A stretch of 64,000 bases of DNA, taken from Leptolyngbya sp. FACHB-321. Its GTDB lineage: Bacteria; Cyanobacteriota; Cyanobacteriia; Leptolyngbyales; Leptolyngbyaceae. A program made the position numbers and the translations under genes. Under the pieces are notes generated by a model that was not told the DNA's origin, ran no database searches, and saw nothing but the letters and a program-made list of their open reading frames with translations. How positions within the stretch are numbered: the first letter of the stretch is position 1; each line of letters starts with the position of its first letter. Shown piece by piece: positions 2,360-9,186 of the stretch. The stretch lies in NCBI RefSeq assembly GCF_014695975.1, contig NZ_JACJPI010000074.1:62001-126000 (forward strand), read 5' to 3'.

Positions 2360-2695
2360 CTACCATCCCTGTTGCGATTGCTCCAAGACATAGGTAGCTA
2401 CATCTTCAATCTGCTCTGCGCTTAAACGTCCACCAAAGGCAGGCATAGCATTTTTGCCTTTTGCAACCTGATGCTTAATTGCGTCTAGAGATGCCATCTC
2501 GTACTTCTCCAGAGCCTCTTTTTTTAAAGTCTTGTTAGCAAGAATGACATTATTACCGCCCATGTGGCAGGCAGCGCAATTAGCGTTAAAAAGTTTTTCA
2601 CCGTTCACAAGGTTTGCTGCCTGTGCCGGAGAGCCTGCCATGCTAAAGATAAAAACGATCGTCGCCAGTAGCGCGATCATCGACAGTCTCTTCAA
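2360..2695 (-). CDS. petJ: Cytochrome c6
   Basis: A soluble lumenal c-type cytochrome that carries electrons from cytochrome b6f to photosystem I, an alternative to plastocyanin. The 111-residue precursor has an N-terminal signal peptide ending near AQA (residue 26). The haem-binding motif is CAACH (C40, C43, H44) and the methionine ligand is M84 in NAMPAFGG. Length and motif order match the family. The gene sits downstream of petE on the same strand with a terminator between them, so it should have its own promoter in 2696-2812. In characterised cyanobacteria copper represses petJ and activates petE through a BlaI-type regulator. No such regulator gene is in this window. Confidence 0.96.
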   Translation of the reverse strand: MKRLSMIALLATIVFIFSMAGSPAQAANLVNGEKLFNANCAACHMGGNNVILANKTLKKEALEKYEMASLDAIKHQVAKGKNAMPAFGGRLSAEQIEDVATYVLEQSQQGW

Positions 2696-2812
2696 GCCGT
2701 TTCTCCTCTATCTGGATTTTAATATCCCACTCGTTTAGCTGGGCATTGAGTAACGGGTTCACGTAGACAAGGCGGCTTTAGGCGTCATCTTGCTTGCTGT
2801 GCGATCGCACGA

Positions 2813-2856
2813 CAAAAAAGCTGGAACTACCTACCGCGTTCTGGGTAGATAGTTCC
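2813..2856 (-). terminator. Intrinsic terminator of petE
   Basis: On the minus strand GGAACTATCTACC pairs with GGTAGGTAGTTCC (13 bp, one wobble), followed by AGCTTTTTTG. It directly follows the petE stop and separates petE from petJ transcription. Confidence 0.82.
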
Positions 2857-2871
2857 CGTTGCTTCGCGAAA

Positions 2872-3291
2872 TTAGCCTTCAACCGTTAGTTTGCCAATCA
2901 TGCCAGCACCTCGGTGAGGAGCGCAGAAGTAAGAGTATTCACCAGCCGCAAGATCTTTAGGGATGGTCAACTCATAACCTTTGCCAGGAGCCATTTCAAG
3001 CTGAGGATGGGAAAGAGATTTTGCCAAATCCTTGTCTTTGCCAGGAATTGCTTTGTCGTCGAAGATGACGTTGTGGGGAGGCACTTTGTTAACAACCCAG
3101 TTCACAGTATCACCAGGTTTGACGGTTAGGTTAGCGGGTTGGAAGACTAGCAGACCGTTATCAGCGCCCATTTTAACTGTATAAGTCTCAGCTGCTGCGG
3201 GAGCCACTGACGTAAAAAAGCTACCAACAACAAGCAGGGCAGCCAGCACGGTGAGGCAGAGGCTTTTCGTAACAAAACGGATTGATTTCAT
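2872..3291 (-). CDS. petE: Plastocyanin
   Basis: The blue copper protein that shuttles electrons from cytochrome b6f to photosystem I in the thylakoid lumen. The 139-residue precursor has a signal peptide ending at APAAA (about residue 34). The copper ligands are all present: H73 in PPHNVIF, then C123, H126 and M131 in [11 protein letters not shown]. Length is normal. It lies between psbV2 and petJ and ends at a strong terminator, so it is probably a monocistronic unit. Expression is expected to depend on copper, by family knowledge rather than by a site I can see here. Confidence 0.97.
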
Positions 3292-3460
3292 AGCTCTCTT
3301 AGTGATTTAAGCGCACTTACATCTATGGATCTTAAACCATATCTACGACAGCGCGTCGAAGAATCTAAACAGTGATGGAGAGCAAGCGATGAGACTTTAT
3401 GCCTTTACAATCCTCTGAGTCATTGCACATCCTTAAACCAAGGACGTTAGAGGGTGTAGC

Positions 3461-3958
3461 TTACTCATCCTGGAAAATTGCGCCGCCCCATCCGGGTGCT
3501 GTTTGCGCTGCTCTCAGCACAAAACCTGCCAGGCTTTCTACCTGCGCTTGCGACAACCAGCTTTCAGGCACTTGGCGGCATAAAAATGTTTCTTCAGTGC
3601 CGTCGTAAGTCATTGGTTGTCGGAAGTAAGCAACCAGGCTGCTAACGTTATCGCGTCGTGGTGTTGCGCCCTGTAACGTTGCTAGCGCTAACGACACAGT
3701 GGGATCCGGTAAGGTTGCTCCACCCACATGACAGTTAAGACAATTGCGCTCAAAGAGTTGCTTGCCAGCTGACAGTTCTTCTGCCGCAAACAAGCGAGTG
3801 TTGCCTTGTTCATCCAGTGCCAGTGGGATAGGCTCGGTGACGCGCAGGTAGCGTGTTACATAGGCATCACCGGCAGCATAAGCGGGTAACACACGGGTGA
3901 AGAGTGAACCGATAGCGATAACCAGAACCAGTAGACGAACCCAAAGAGAGCGTTGCAT
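3461..3958 (-). CDS. psbV2: Cytochrome c550-like protein PsbV2
   Basis: A lumenal c-type cytochrome related to PsbV and characteristically encoded beside it. I take the start at 3958 (MQRSLWVRLL) because it gives a clean signal peptide ending at AYA. The frame could extend 18 codons further to 4012. The haem motif is CLNCH (C73, C76, H77 from this start). After the conserved TYDG the axial histidine of PsbV (EVHPS) is absent. A cysteine (C127, in FLCRQVP) lies at nearly the equivalent position, in agreement with the His/Cys haem ligation reported for PsbV2. Function in vivo is not settled. It follows psbV on the same strand. Confidence 0.88.
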   Translation of the reverse strand: MQRSLWVRLLVLVIAIGSLFTRVLPAYAAGDAYVTRYLRVTEPIPLALDEQGNTRLFAAEELSAGKQLFERNCLNCHVGGATLPDPTVSLALATLQGATPRRDNVSSLVAYFRQPMTYDGTEETFLCRQVPESWLSQAQVESLAGFVLRAAQTAPGWGGAIFQDE

Positions 3959-4098
3959 CTGTAAAATTCCGCTTGAATGAACTCTCGCTTGAACAAAAAA
4001 GACTTTAGACATTTAAACTCTAGACACTCGATCGGTCTATTAAGTCTGATGTCTAAAGTCTTACTGTAGAAGAATGTAAGGCAGTGATGCCTAATCGC

Positions 4099-4590
4099 TT
4101 AATAGTAAATCTTGCCGCCGCCCCACTTGTCGCCAACCACTTTAGGCTGAAGCAAAATGTGACCCGCGATCGCAACCAGGTCGTCTTCTGTCAGGTTACG
4201 CATTTCGGGGAAGTTGTCTTTACTCTTAAGGCTAGGATGCACTTCGGCGATCGACTGTGCACCGTCGTAGGTGGTGGGGTCTTTCATGTAATCCACCAAA
4301 GAAGCCACCGTGTTACGGGGTGGTGTTGCTAGTGCCAATGATTCTGGCTCAAGACCAACATTAGGATCTGTCTTGGTCACGCCACCGGCATGGCACTGGG
4401 CACAGGCATACTGAAACAGGCGCTTTCCTTCTTTCACCTGCTTGAGACTCAGCTCAAGCGTTCCACCTTTGTCATCAAGGGGAATTGTACGAATTGCTGC
4501 ATCCAGTTCAGCCGCCGAGACGTTGCCGACAAACATCTGAAAGGCGAAGAATACAGTGGCTACAACAAGCCAGATGTACCTTTTAAGCAT
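4099..4590 (-). CDS. psbV: Photosystem II cytochrome c550
   Basis: An extrinsic lumenal subunit that stabilises the oxygen-evolving complex of photosystem II. The 163-residue precursor has a signal peptide ending at VSA (residue 26). The mature start AELDAAIRTIPL is typical. The haem motif is CAQCH (C63, C66, H67) and the second axial ligand is H118 in AEVHPS. The C-terminus GGGKIYY is the conserved end. It is the first gene of the minus-strand block psbV, psbV2, petE, petJ, with about 140 bp to psbV2, and it may be cotranscribed with psbV2. Confidence 0.97.
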   Translation of the reverse strand: MLKRYIWLVVATVFFAFQMFVGNVSAAELDAAIRTIPLDDKGGTLELSLKQVKEGKRLFQYACAQCHAGGVTKTDPNVGLEPESLALATPPRNTVASLVDYMKDPTTYDGAQSIAEVHPSLKSKDNFPEMRNLTEDDLVAIAGHILLQPKVVGDKWGGGKIYY

Positions 4591-6403: not shown

Positions 6404-7459
6404 ATGGACGGCATCACAATTTCAGGATTGGTAGGTTCCTCTCAACATGACGCGATCGCCGATGATTCGCTAAAAGACGAAGACAATGCAGCGTGGGTAA
6501 TGGAGTTAGAGCCTTGCATCCGTGATGAGTGGATCGAGCGGATTAGCTGGATTCGGCTGATTGATCGACTGGCTGAAAATGAACTGGTAGATTCTGATAG
6601 TGCTGAATTTCGCAAATTTTACGCTGGTTGGAAATGGCTTTTACTTTGGGGGCAGGTTAAATCTGGATGTGCCTATACAGACGTATTGAACTGTATCTAT
6701 ACACGCTGGTTTGGCACTTCTAACCCGTTCGATCGCTTCTCGATTTGGTCATGGAACCGCTACCTAAAAGCGATCGAGCGCTACCACGGTCATAACCTCG
6801 TCATTGATACTCTTGATCAGTATGAGGTCATGCTCAAAGATTTAGGTGGAGCTTTTTTTCAAGTCCTCCCCTTTCTATCACAGAACTATTGGCAACCTGC
6901 CTGCTACTTCGGTGCCTTAGACCAGTTCTTTAACAACCTGCGCGATATGCAGGAGGATGCACAACGCGGCATTTGTTACATTCCCGAAGCCACGCTAGCC
7001 CAGTTTGGTGTCACACGAGAAGAGATCATCCAGCAGACTGCTTGCCAGAACCCAGGTTATGCAAAGATGATGCAGTTTTTGCTTGATCACTATCTCAAAA
7101 GGCTACAGCAGAAAGCGTATCCCCTCCTGATAGCAGAGGATTTGCACTCGTCATGGGCAATCTTGCGGGATTGGTCGGTGCATCGCTACCACCGGATTGA
7201 GCGCATTTTCCGCGACTGTAATTTTGACTACACTCAGTTTCCACAACGGTACTGGTCTGAGGTGCAGCAAGATTTGCCAGTGCTCATTGTTCAGCTTCGT
7301 CAGCAGCAACAGCAGTATGCTCATAGTCCAGTCAAGCGCTGTCCGCATCGAAGCGTCTTAACGGTGCTATCCTCACTAGAGACGATCGGTCGCAACGTGA
7401 TCAAAGTTGCAAGTATGGTACTAAGCCGTCCCGTCTTCTCAGGGCAGCAATCCAGCTAA
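6404..7459 (+). CDS. Divergent squalene/phytoene synthase family protein
   Basis: The family normally condenses two prenyl diphosphates head to head. The second aspartate-rich motif is recognisable at residues 178-194 (NNLRDMQEDAQRGICYIP), with R180, D181, E184, D185, R188 and Y192, followed by LAQFGVT. The first aspartate-rich motif is not intact. The nearest candidate is IDRLAENE (D54-x3-E58). The protein is soluble, 351 residues, with a basic C-terminal extension beyond about residue 300. Because the first metal-binding motif looks degenerate, activity as a prenyl synthase is uncertain. No carotenoid or hopanoid genes are adjacent. It is divergent from the DUF2007 gene. Confidence 0.7.
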   Translation: MDGITISGLVGSSQHDAIADDSLKDEDNAAWVMELEPCIRDEWIERISWIRLIDRLAENELVDSDSAEFRKFYAGWKWLLLWGQVKSGCAYTDVLNCIYTRWFGTSNPFDRFSIWSWNRYLKAIERYHGHNLVIDTLDQYEVMLKDLGGAFFQVLPFLSQNYWQPACYFGALDQFFNNLRDMQEDAQRGICYIPEATLAQFGVTREEIIQQTACQNPGYAKMMQFLLDHYLKRLQQKAYPLLIAEDLHSSWAILRDWSVHRYHRIERIFRDCNFDYTQFPQRYWSEVQQDLPVLIVQLRQQQQQYAHSPVKRCPHRSVLTVLSSLETIGRNVIKVASMVLSRPVFSGQQSS

Positions 7460-7506: not shown

Positions 7507-7953
7507 ATGGGTCTATCGTTAAATCAACTGCTAGGACGTGCAGTGGCGATCGCGGCAACCGCGCACCAAAACCAGTTGGACAAAGCGAACGCACCGTACA
7601 TTTTGCATCCACTGCGGCTATTGCTACGCGGACAAACGCCATTAGAGCAAATTGTAGCCGTGCTGCATGATGTGGTAGAAGATTCGGACTGGACGCTAGA
7701 ACAGCTTGCGGCTGAGGGCTTTCCGTCGGAGGCGATCGCTGCCTTGGACTGTCTCACACGGCGATCGGACGAAAGCTACGACGAATTTATCGATCGCGTG
7801 CTGACGAATCCCCTTGCTATGCGGGTCAAGCGCTACGACCTGGAAGACAATATGACGCTTACCCGTATGACGGTGCTGACTGCAAAAGATACGGAACGGT
7901 TGCAGCGGTATCACGCTGTCTATCAACGCCTGCTGCAAGCGCTAGAGACTTAA
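7507..7953 (+). CDS. HD-domain (p)ppGpp hydrolase-like protein
   Basis: A small, single-domain metal-dependent phosphohydrolase resembling the hydrolase half of RelA/SpoT. The HD signature is present: H20 in ATAHQNQ, YILHPLR, and VLHDVVEDSD carrying the HD pair. A later D/N pair is in YDLEDNMTLTRM. The protein is 148 residues, with no synthetase, TGS or ACT domain, so a small alarmone hydrolase or another nucleotide pyrophosphohydrolase are both possible. It lies 47 bp after the synthase-like gene on the same strand and may be cotranscribed. Substrate is inferred only from the family. Confidence 0.82.
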   Translation: MGLSLNQLLGRAVAIAATAHQNQLDKANAPYILHPLRLLLRGQTPLEQIVAVLHDVVEDSDWTLEQLAAEGFPSEAIAALDCLTRRSDESYDEFIDRVLTNPLAMRVKRYDLEDNMTLTRMTVLTAKDTERLQRYHAVYQRLLQALET

Positions 7954-8022: not shown

Positions 8023-9186
8023 CTAAAGCAAACCGATCGCGTGTAATGGACCACGACCCATAAAGATCTCTAGCAGCACGGCAAGAATACCCACCATGGC
8101 AAGGCGACCGTTCCAAACTTCTGCCGAAATGGTCATACCCCATTCCCAGCGCTCTGGCGGATACATCTTCACTTGCTTCTCTGGATGCATGACTTGAGCC
8201 AGCTTCAAATGTGGGGCGTTGAACGCTTCTATCACCAGATCTGCCAGGTCATTGATAAACCCAGGATGTGTATTGAGAGCAGGAACGCGATGGAAGTTTG
8301 CAATGCCTGCTTCTTCTGCCAGTTCCCGATACTCCATATCAATTTCTTGCAGCGTTTCAATATGTTCTGAAACGAAACTAATCGGCACAACTGCGAGATC
8401 TTTGACGCCTTGCTCGGCAAGTGCGGTCAGCGCATCATCGGTGTAAGGCTGAAGCCATTCCACAGGACCCACACGGCTTTGATACGCCAGCACATGGGGG
8501 TTGGGTCGGTTCAAGGTCTTCATAATGAGCGCAACGCACGCTTCGATTTCACGTTGATAAGGGTCGCCAGCTTCTTCGACGTAGCTAACAGGCACTCCAT
8601 GAGCGCTGAAGAAAACGTGAACTTTGTCGGGTTCAGGGAATTGATCTAACTCTTTGGCAATTAGGTCTGCCATTGCTTGAAGGTAACCGGGGCGATCGTA
8701 CCAGGAGGGAATCGCGGTGTAGTCGATTTGCGAGAGGCTGGGATCTTCATTCCAAATTTGCTCTAGCAACCGAAAGCTGGAGCCACTCGTACTAATGGAG
8801 AAATGAGGATAGAGCGGTAGAATCACCAGGCGATCAACCCCATCACGCTTAATACGGGCGATCGCTTCCTCAGTGTAAGGATGCCAATAGCGCATACCGA
8901 CATAGACATTGGCATCATGCCCCTTTTGCCGAAGCTGTATCTGGAGTGCTTCCGCTTGTTCATCTGTGATCCGTCGCAACGGTGAGCCGCCGCCAATTTG
9001 CTGATAGTTTTCCTGAGATTTTTTTGCCCGCGTTGTCGAAATTAACCAGGCAAGCGGACGTTGCAGCCAGGGAAACGGCAACCGAATGATCTCCGGATCG
9101 GAAAACAAGTTGAACAGAAAGGGACGGACATCTTCCAAGTGGTCTGGTCCGCCCAGGTTTAGCAGCAATACCCCAAATCGACCCAT
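8023..9186 (-). CDS. hemH: Ferrochelatase with C-terminal chlorophyll-binding-like domain
   Basis: Inserts Fe2+ into protoporphyrin IX to make haem. The catalytic domain (residues 1 to about 320) carries [11 protein letters not shown], the metal-binding [17 protein letters not shown] segment and [16 protein letters not shown]. The last 60 residues form the cyanobacterial/plastid extension. It is a linker followed by [11 protein letters not shown], the chlorophyll a/b-binding motif seen in Hli proteins, in a hydrophobic segment, which implies thylakoid association. In studied cyanobacteria this tail affects dimerisation and balances haem against chlorophyll synthesis. Total length of 387 is normal for this fused form. 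Confidence 0.97.

Follow-up and report, generated by a model that had tools for sequence, protein, structure and literature searches.

A conserved, divergent relative of squalene and phytoene synthases with an altered first acidic motif in Leptolyngbya sp. FACHB-321

Background

In the squalene synthase of T. cruzi, S1 is served by an Asp cluster with Mg2+, and the diphosphate in S2, the second-substrate site, is held by Ser42, Arg43, Ser44 and Arg68 (PMC4006925). NzsG and CqsB4 are enzymes of the squalene/phytoene synthase (SQS/PSY) fold that prenylate a carbazole, a non-diphosphate acceptor (PMC7466098), and DmtC1, of the same fold type, transfers farnesyl onto diketopiperazines in a buffer containing Mg2+ (PMC6173783). 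B. subtilis YisP is described as a phosphatase that converts FPP to farnesol (PMC10148934). NDU1 is predicted to belong to the PF00494 family, with NDUFAF6 as its human counterpart, and both are reported to be without DxxxD motifs (PMC8007014).

The gene described here lies in a window of 64,000 nucleotides from Leptolyngbya sp. FACHB-321 (contig NZ_JACJPI010000074.1, positions 62,001 to 126,000 of the forward strand), to which all coordinates without a locus label refer. It had been read from the sequence as an SQS/PSY-like gene with a degenerate first aspartate motif. In open PubMed Central text, no title on its family was found among the matches listed.

Results

The open reading frame was found as given in the original prediction, at 6404..7459 of the forward strand (stop included), with an ATG start and a product of 351 aa, and the two motif stretches that had been singled out were recovered as residues 53-60 (IDRLAENE) and 180-189 (RDMQEDAQRG). 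The sole Pfam match of the protein was PF00494 (SQS_PSY), at 42.9 bits (gathering cut-off 26 bits) over residues 161-242, which covers the second acidic motif and not the first. Against the six closest relatives dN/dS was 0.071-0.097, at dS values (1.15-1.70) near saturation; two remoter pairs were saturated and no ratio was taken from them. The gene is a real open reading frame under purifying selection. The C-terminal tail (residues 304-351; 7313..7456, +) was variable and of low confidence in the structure prediction, with one predicted helix at 319-340. Long C-terminal extensions with no Pfam match were seen in two members of the family from uncultured cyanobacteria (L058, 5971-7692; L061, 5503-7410).

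Structure prediction with AlphaFold, using 38 sequences, gave a model with a pLDDT of 85.3 and a pTM of 0.82, and 239 residues scored 90 or higher. Foldseek returned 16 PDB matches at E ≤0.001, all of them squalene/phytoene-synthase-type chains, including the CrtM-like 8isa (E 3.7e-5), S. aureus CrtM, HpnC and carbazole prenyltransferases such as CqsB4. Structural alignment with VIA-align placed 8isa (Z 21.9, rmsd 3.1, 257 residues aligned) and 5iys (Z 21.9, rmsd 3.6, 260 aligned) ahead of HpnC 4hd1 (Z 19.6, rmsd 2.9, 242 aligned), LvqB4 (Z 19.3, rmsd 4.1, 286 aligned), CqsB4 (Z 19.2, rmsd 4.0, 283 aligned), human squalene synthase (Z 17.0-17.6) and YisP (Z 17.1, rmsd 3.3, 227 aligned); among the best 50 rows, terpene synthases and the prenyltransferase DabA reached Z ≤13.8. 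On the predicted structure, the protein thus has the squalene/phytoene-synthase fold.

A protein search of 292 genomes taken from the phylum of the source gave matches in 35, of which 12 were strong (>220 bits, source genome counted) and 23 fell below 40 bits; the 18 weak-match genomes that were fetched as loci (L016-L033) carried proteins that were CrtB-type by sequence. Six short peptide patterns, searched against named genome contigs, led to 32 loci (25 cyanobacterial, five from Sorangium and two from Aenigmatarchaeota). With a profile of the family, the Sorangium phylum yielded a strong match in one of 188 genomes, the starting genome itself, plus 31 further genomes at ≤43 bits, and the archaeal phylum yielded two of 156, both already known from the peptide patterns, plus one further genome at ≤43 bits. 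No family match was found in the plasmids searched, and none of 45 pattern matches in viral contigs was a relative. Among the genomes searched the family is rare, patchy and spread over two domains. The 45 strong open reading frames were reduced to 38 distinct family proteins, the source protein included, and these were compared with 59 other PF00494 proteins from the searched genomes (CrtB, HpnC, HpnD, squalene-synthase-like and other phytoene-synthase-like proteins), whose group labels were assigned in this analysis by motifs.

Invariant columns of the family include D21, K24, D25, D27, N28, W31, R51, D54, R55, E58, Q174, N177, R180, D181, E184, D185, R261, Y262, R264, Y283 and W284. Outside the acidic motifs, the alignment of the 38 members with the 59 other proteins marked W117-N-R-Y120 (6752..6763, +), with its Trp and Tyr invariant, and the C-terminal F279-x3-Y283-W284-x2-V287 (7238..7264, +) as family-specific. 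R261 and R264 of R261-Y262-H-R264 (7184..7195, +) were present in 38/38; among the 59 others Arg stood at 264 in six, and Arg at 261 was not among the commonest residues. Judged from its sequences, the family appears as a conserved, so far uncharacterised relative of squalene- and carotenoid-building enzymes.

The second acidic motif, D173-Q-F-F-N177-N-L-R180-D181-M-Q-E184-D185-A-Q-R-G189-I-C-Y192-I-P194 (6920..6985, +), lies in the Pfam-matched stretch and was intact as predicted, Q174, N177, R180, D181, E184 and D185 each being present in 38/38; with its Asn and Arg it has the form found in head-to-head prenyl synthases. Variants of this motif were noted elsewhere in the data. The squalene-synthase-like protein of the source genome (L002, 1468-2283) and those of L074-L076 all carry Asn for its first Asp (4/4; for example NILRNQAED). 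SQS/PSY-like proteins of Aenigmatarchaeota (L064, 10458-11396, identical to the L072 protein; and L073) carry the odd forms LLRDFRFD or LLRDFRYD and are encoded in a small isoprenoid-type gene group.

The first acidic motif is R51-L-I-D54-R-L-A-E58 (6554..6577, +). In a profile alignment (hhalign) of the family with the 59 CrtB/HpnC/HpnD/SQS-type proteins (98.6%, E 1.1e-15, residues 32-276), R51-x-x-D54-x3-E58 fell on C-R-x-x-D-E-L-V-D, and D54 and E58 are taken as the motif 1 counterpart because the alignment sets them on C-R-x-x-D-x3-D; against the four squalene-synthase-like proteins alone the alignment was weaker (72.9%, E 3.1e-5). Position 54 was D in 38/38 family members vs D in 58/59 and N in 1/59 of the others. 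Position 58 was E in 38/38 vs D in 59/59, so that the family has DxxxE in place of D-x3-D, and position 55 was R in 38/38 vs D or E in 55/59. The departure from the usual motif is real, fixed and family-specific. It consists of a D-to-E substitution together with R55, with the acidic pair retained, and since E58 is fixed and the carboxylate is kept, use of the motif rather than its decay is indicated. The original prediction was thus right that this motif departs from the rule; "degenerate" describes it less well than a conservatively changed DxxxE.

A further change, absent from that prediction, was found at the position equivalent to the Ser-Arg-Ser of S2. The segment D20-W31 (DDSLKDEDNAAW; 6461..6496, +) is acidic, its register being uncertain by one residue between alignment methods, and D21, K24, D25, D27, N28 and W31 were present in 38/38, which makes K-D-x-D-N invariant. 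Residues 27-30 in the MAFFT alignment were DNAA in 37/38 and DNGF in 1/38, in place of a Ser-Arg-Ser-Phe-type segment; hhalign placed the segment one residue off MAFFT, and either way D27 or N28 replaces the basic residue. Among the 59 others, K/R stood at 28 in 39, S/T at 29 in 46 and F at 30 in 55. The matching four residues were A/S-K-T-F or S-A-T-F in CrtB rows (22/22), S-R-T-F in squalene-synthase-like rows (6/6) and Y-E-N-F in HpnC rows (7/8, with the acidic E in 8/8), and the HpnD/PSY-type rows (n=21) were mixed, with Ser for K/R at 28 in 10 and Asn at 29 in 5. HpnC uses a single diphosphate substrate. Net charge over residues 20-31 was -4 in 35/38 and -3 in 3/38 family members; for the same segment it was positive in CrtB (20/22), HpnD/PSY-type (20/21) and archaeal PSY-like rows (2/2), negative in 7/8 HpnC rows and 0 or -1 in 6/6 squalene-synthase-like rows. 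Charge alone is indecisive, because the squalene-synthase-like rows are at 0 or -1 yet keep S-R-T-F. The rebuilt S2 segment is the main sign against the usual joining of two prenyl diphosphates, and it is a hint only, because the segment varies in other members of PF00494 as well. The premise that family members need both acidic motifs for the two prenyl diphosphates does not agree with T. cruzi squalene synthase, where, as described in PMC4006925, the Asp cluster serves S1 and Ser and Arg residues hold the S2 diphosphate.

The protein fell far below the cut-offs of the NCBIfam models for phytoene synthase (CrtB; 31.2, 28.8 and 18.9 bits against 550, 480 and 500), HpnD (31.0 of 278.6 bits) and HpnC (28.3 of 250.45 bits), and squalene synthase TIGR01559 was not among the five NCBIfam matches listed for it, HMMER filters dropping most weak ones. 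A quick tree was built from 73 rows out of 97 (the 24 dropped were mostly near-duplicates); in it the family lay on its own side of one branch (SH-aLRT 100, stem 4.19 changes per column), and in a tree of 48 rows it again formed a clade (SH-aLRT 99). The phylogeny proposed with the original prediction thus set the family apart from CrtB, HpnC, HpnD and the squalene synthases in both trees, each of which carried a program warning of long branches meeting. As to the sister group, a grouping with squalene synthases had a support of 52, while the test of a grouping with HpnC did not reject it (p-AU 0.518).

Three PF00494 genes were found in the source genome, namely CrtB (L001; 271.1 bits), a squalene-synthase-like gene encoding 271 aa (L002; 78.5 bits) and the gene described here (43.2 bits). 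The best NCBIfam match of L002 was TIGR01559 at 81.3 bits, below its cut-off of 286.75, and its size is like that of Synechocystis sll0513 (277 aa; PMC3953072). Fifteen cyanobacterial genomes (the source, three by locus and eleven from the phylum search) were checked for PF00494 proteins and hopene cyclase. CrtB was present in 15/15, the best match to L001 exceeding 470 bits in each of the other 14. An L002-type squalene synthase was called in 9/15 (five by scores of 352-409 bits to L002, four by grouping with it in the tree), and the same nine had hopene cyclase; the remaining six had neither, yet kept the gene. Because all 15 genomes have CrtB, and squalene synthase and hopene cyclase are either encoded by other genes or both absent, the gene is not needed for a phytoene or squalene product, and it replaces neither CrtB nor squalene synthase. 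The simple answer that it is the squalene synthase of its host was rejected, as L002 is present and 6/11 of the further genomes have no L002-type protein or hopene cyclase. Each of three Sorangium genomes carried one other PF00494 protein, phytoene-synthase-like. A hopanoid link in Sorangium was considered and dropped, the cyclase-like matches being weak (≤44.1 bits) in two genomes and lacking in the third. For HpnE, a match over the cut-off was found in 0/9 genomes, and sub-threshold matches occurred in 14/14 controls as well.

At 22 of 26 cyanobacterial loci (the 25 plus the source) the gene was divergent to accD, sometimes with one small open reading frame between them, an arrangement that looks like old vertical inheritance and is silent on function. 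By clustering, with Pfam applied to the source genes only, cytochrome-type neighbours were present at 20 and plastocyanin at 17 of the same loci. In the window, genes for a small c-type cytochrome, plastocyanin and two cytochrome c-550 domain proteins (2360-4590, -) adjoin accD, and their relatives flank the gene in most cyanobacterial relatives. Just 3' of the gene, 7507-7953 (+) encodes a small RelA/SpoT-like protein (36.4 of 499.2 bits, no Pfam match) with relatives at seven other loci, and beyond it lies an open reading frame at 8023-9186 (-), which we take to be ferrochelatase-like and whose C-terminal part looks similar to a chlorophyll-binding motif. A histidine-kinase cluster near several loci was rejected as a neighbour, the clustering having joined unlike kinases and regulators. 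In Aenigmatarchaeota L064 the gene comes after a xylose-isomerase-like gene, and within 5 kb are genes for a prenyl diphosphate synthase (best model 246.1 of 468 bits), a type 2 IPP isomerase (407.5 bits, cut-off 281.3), an HpnD-like protein (68.9 of 278.6 bits) and a weakly matching lipid phosphatase. Gene order in L065 was as in L064 by clustering, and the two are one inherited arrangement, not two independent ones.

Discussion

The likeliest of the readings considered, though still a tentative one, is that the protein is a metal-dependent class I prenyl-transferring enzyme that acts on one prenyl diphosphate and either water or another non-diphosphate acceptor, or that cyclises its substrate. 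Mg2+ and the diphosphate of a single prenyl donor (FPP, GGPP or similar) would be bound in S1 by D54, E58, D181 and D185, the donor would ionise, and the second pocket would take a nucleophile that carries no diphosphate, such as water, an amine, or an aromatic or polyol compound, or the donor would cyclise; head-to-head joining with a second prenyl diphosphate would not take place. The predicted fold, metal-ligand positions kept in 38/38, the acidic and Asn-bearing S2 segment, the acidic S2 residue of HpnC, a separate CrtB in 15/15 genomes, six of which keep the gene with neither squalene synthase nor hopene cyclase, the precedents of NzsG/CqsB4 and DmtC1 and the isoprenoid-type neighbours in archaea argue for this reading. 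Against it stand the variation of the S2 segment in other proteins, its register, which differs by one residue between methods, the uncharged or slightly acidic segment of squalene-synthase-like rows, an archaeal gene context that counts as a single arrangement, and cyanobacterial neighbours with no isoprenoid link. The product is probably other than squalene or phytoene, to judge from sequence. That the family is an altered-chemistry branch, one half of an earlier suggestion, is plausible given its separate clade, scores far below the family cut-offs, rebuilt S2 segment and the presence of CrtB and, where there is a hopene cyclase, of another squalene synthase. It is conceivable, if rather doubtful, that cyanobacteria, Sorangium and an archaeal lineage share a new enzyme class of this fold, in which an acidic S2, perhaps with metal ions of its own, would direct a prenyl cation to a new type of acceptor and so to a new terpenoid or prenylated metabolite.

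A true head-to-head synthase is an unlikely but serious competitor. Its DxxxE would bind Mg2+, its S2 diphosphate would be held otherwise (for example by K24, R51, R261 or R264, or by extra Mg2+ on the acidic segment), and an unusual C30-C40 or mixed product would result. The protein retains the predicted fold and the acidic residues of both motifs, along with Q174, N177 and R180; the invariant basic K24, R261 and R264 could stand in for lost contacts, and R51, present in 38/38 and 59/59, probably corresponds by inferred match to Arg68 as described for T. cruzi (PMC4006925). The S2 segment is variable elsewhere too, HpnD/PSY-type rows included, and because those rows vary at 28-29, S-[KR]-S-F is not a requirement for head-to-head coupling; as some of the other proteins have no K/R in this segment, confidence in the single-diphosphate reading was lowered a little and that in a head-to-head enzyme raised a little. 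However, K/R at 28 and S/T at 29 are absent in 38/38 and Phe at 30 in 37/38, and the genomes already carry CrtB, those that have hopene cyclase also encoding a squalene synthase of their own. If the protein were instead a phosphatase of prenyl diphosphates or a simple hydrolase, with a single substrate and water, it would have no need of an S2 diphosphate site, and YisP, described as such an enzyme (PMC10148934), matches structurally at Z 17.1; YisP ranks under CrtM, HpnC and CqsB4, however, and we regard this explanation as improbable. Least probable is the other half of the earlier suggestion, a non-catalytic protein, which would act in assembly or as a scaffold, a role that NDUFAF6/NDU1 may have. 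At least one branch of the PF00494 fold is reported to have neither DxxxD motif (PMC8007014), but here D54, E58, N177, R180, D181, E184 and D185 are invariant (38/38) across bacteria and archaea, dN/dS is 0.07-0.10, and the family is in this unlike NDUFAF6/NDU1.

The family represents a deep branch, with no function assigned so far and a precise active-site change, of the superfamily whose enzymes serve in making sterols, hopanoids and carotenoids. If non-diphosphate prenylation proved true, the small set of NzsG, CqsB4 and DmtC1 would be extended to cyanobacteria and archaea; a true head-to-head synthase would add another mode of binding the acceptor diphosphate. A "squalene/phytoene synthase" label drawn from the Pfam match alone would mislead models of the pathways in these cyanobacteria.

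Among described systems, NDUFAF6 and NDU1 differ from the family in that it keeps the acidic pairs DxxxE and DxxED in 38/38. YisP shares the fold and differs in its described role as an FPP phosphatase. The carbazole prenyltransferases CqsB4 and LvqB4 (7vwt, 7vws) are alike in fold (Z 19.2-19.3), whereas in sequence they, NzsG and DmtC1 give only local matches to the protein. The hydroxysqualene synthase HpnC (4hd1) shares the fold and an acidic residue with, mostly, Asn in the S2 segment, but keeps DxxxD in 7/8 (N in one) and Phe in 7/8 and has Q for R180 in 8/8. The cyanobacterial squalene synthase (sll0513 type; L002) and CrtB (L001) belong to the same superfamily and reside in the same genome, but form separate clades. 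CrtM and CrtM-like proteins (8isa, 8is6, 3ae0) resemble the family in fold (Z 20.6-21.9) and in the N, R, D and ED of the second motif; the family differs from them in its DxxxE, in having no S-K-S-F and in its invariant C-terminal RYxR and YW, at a structural-alignment identity of 11-14%.
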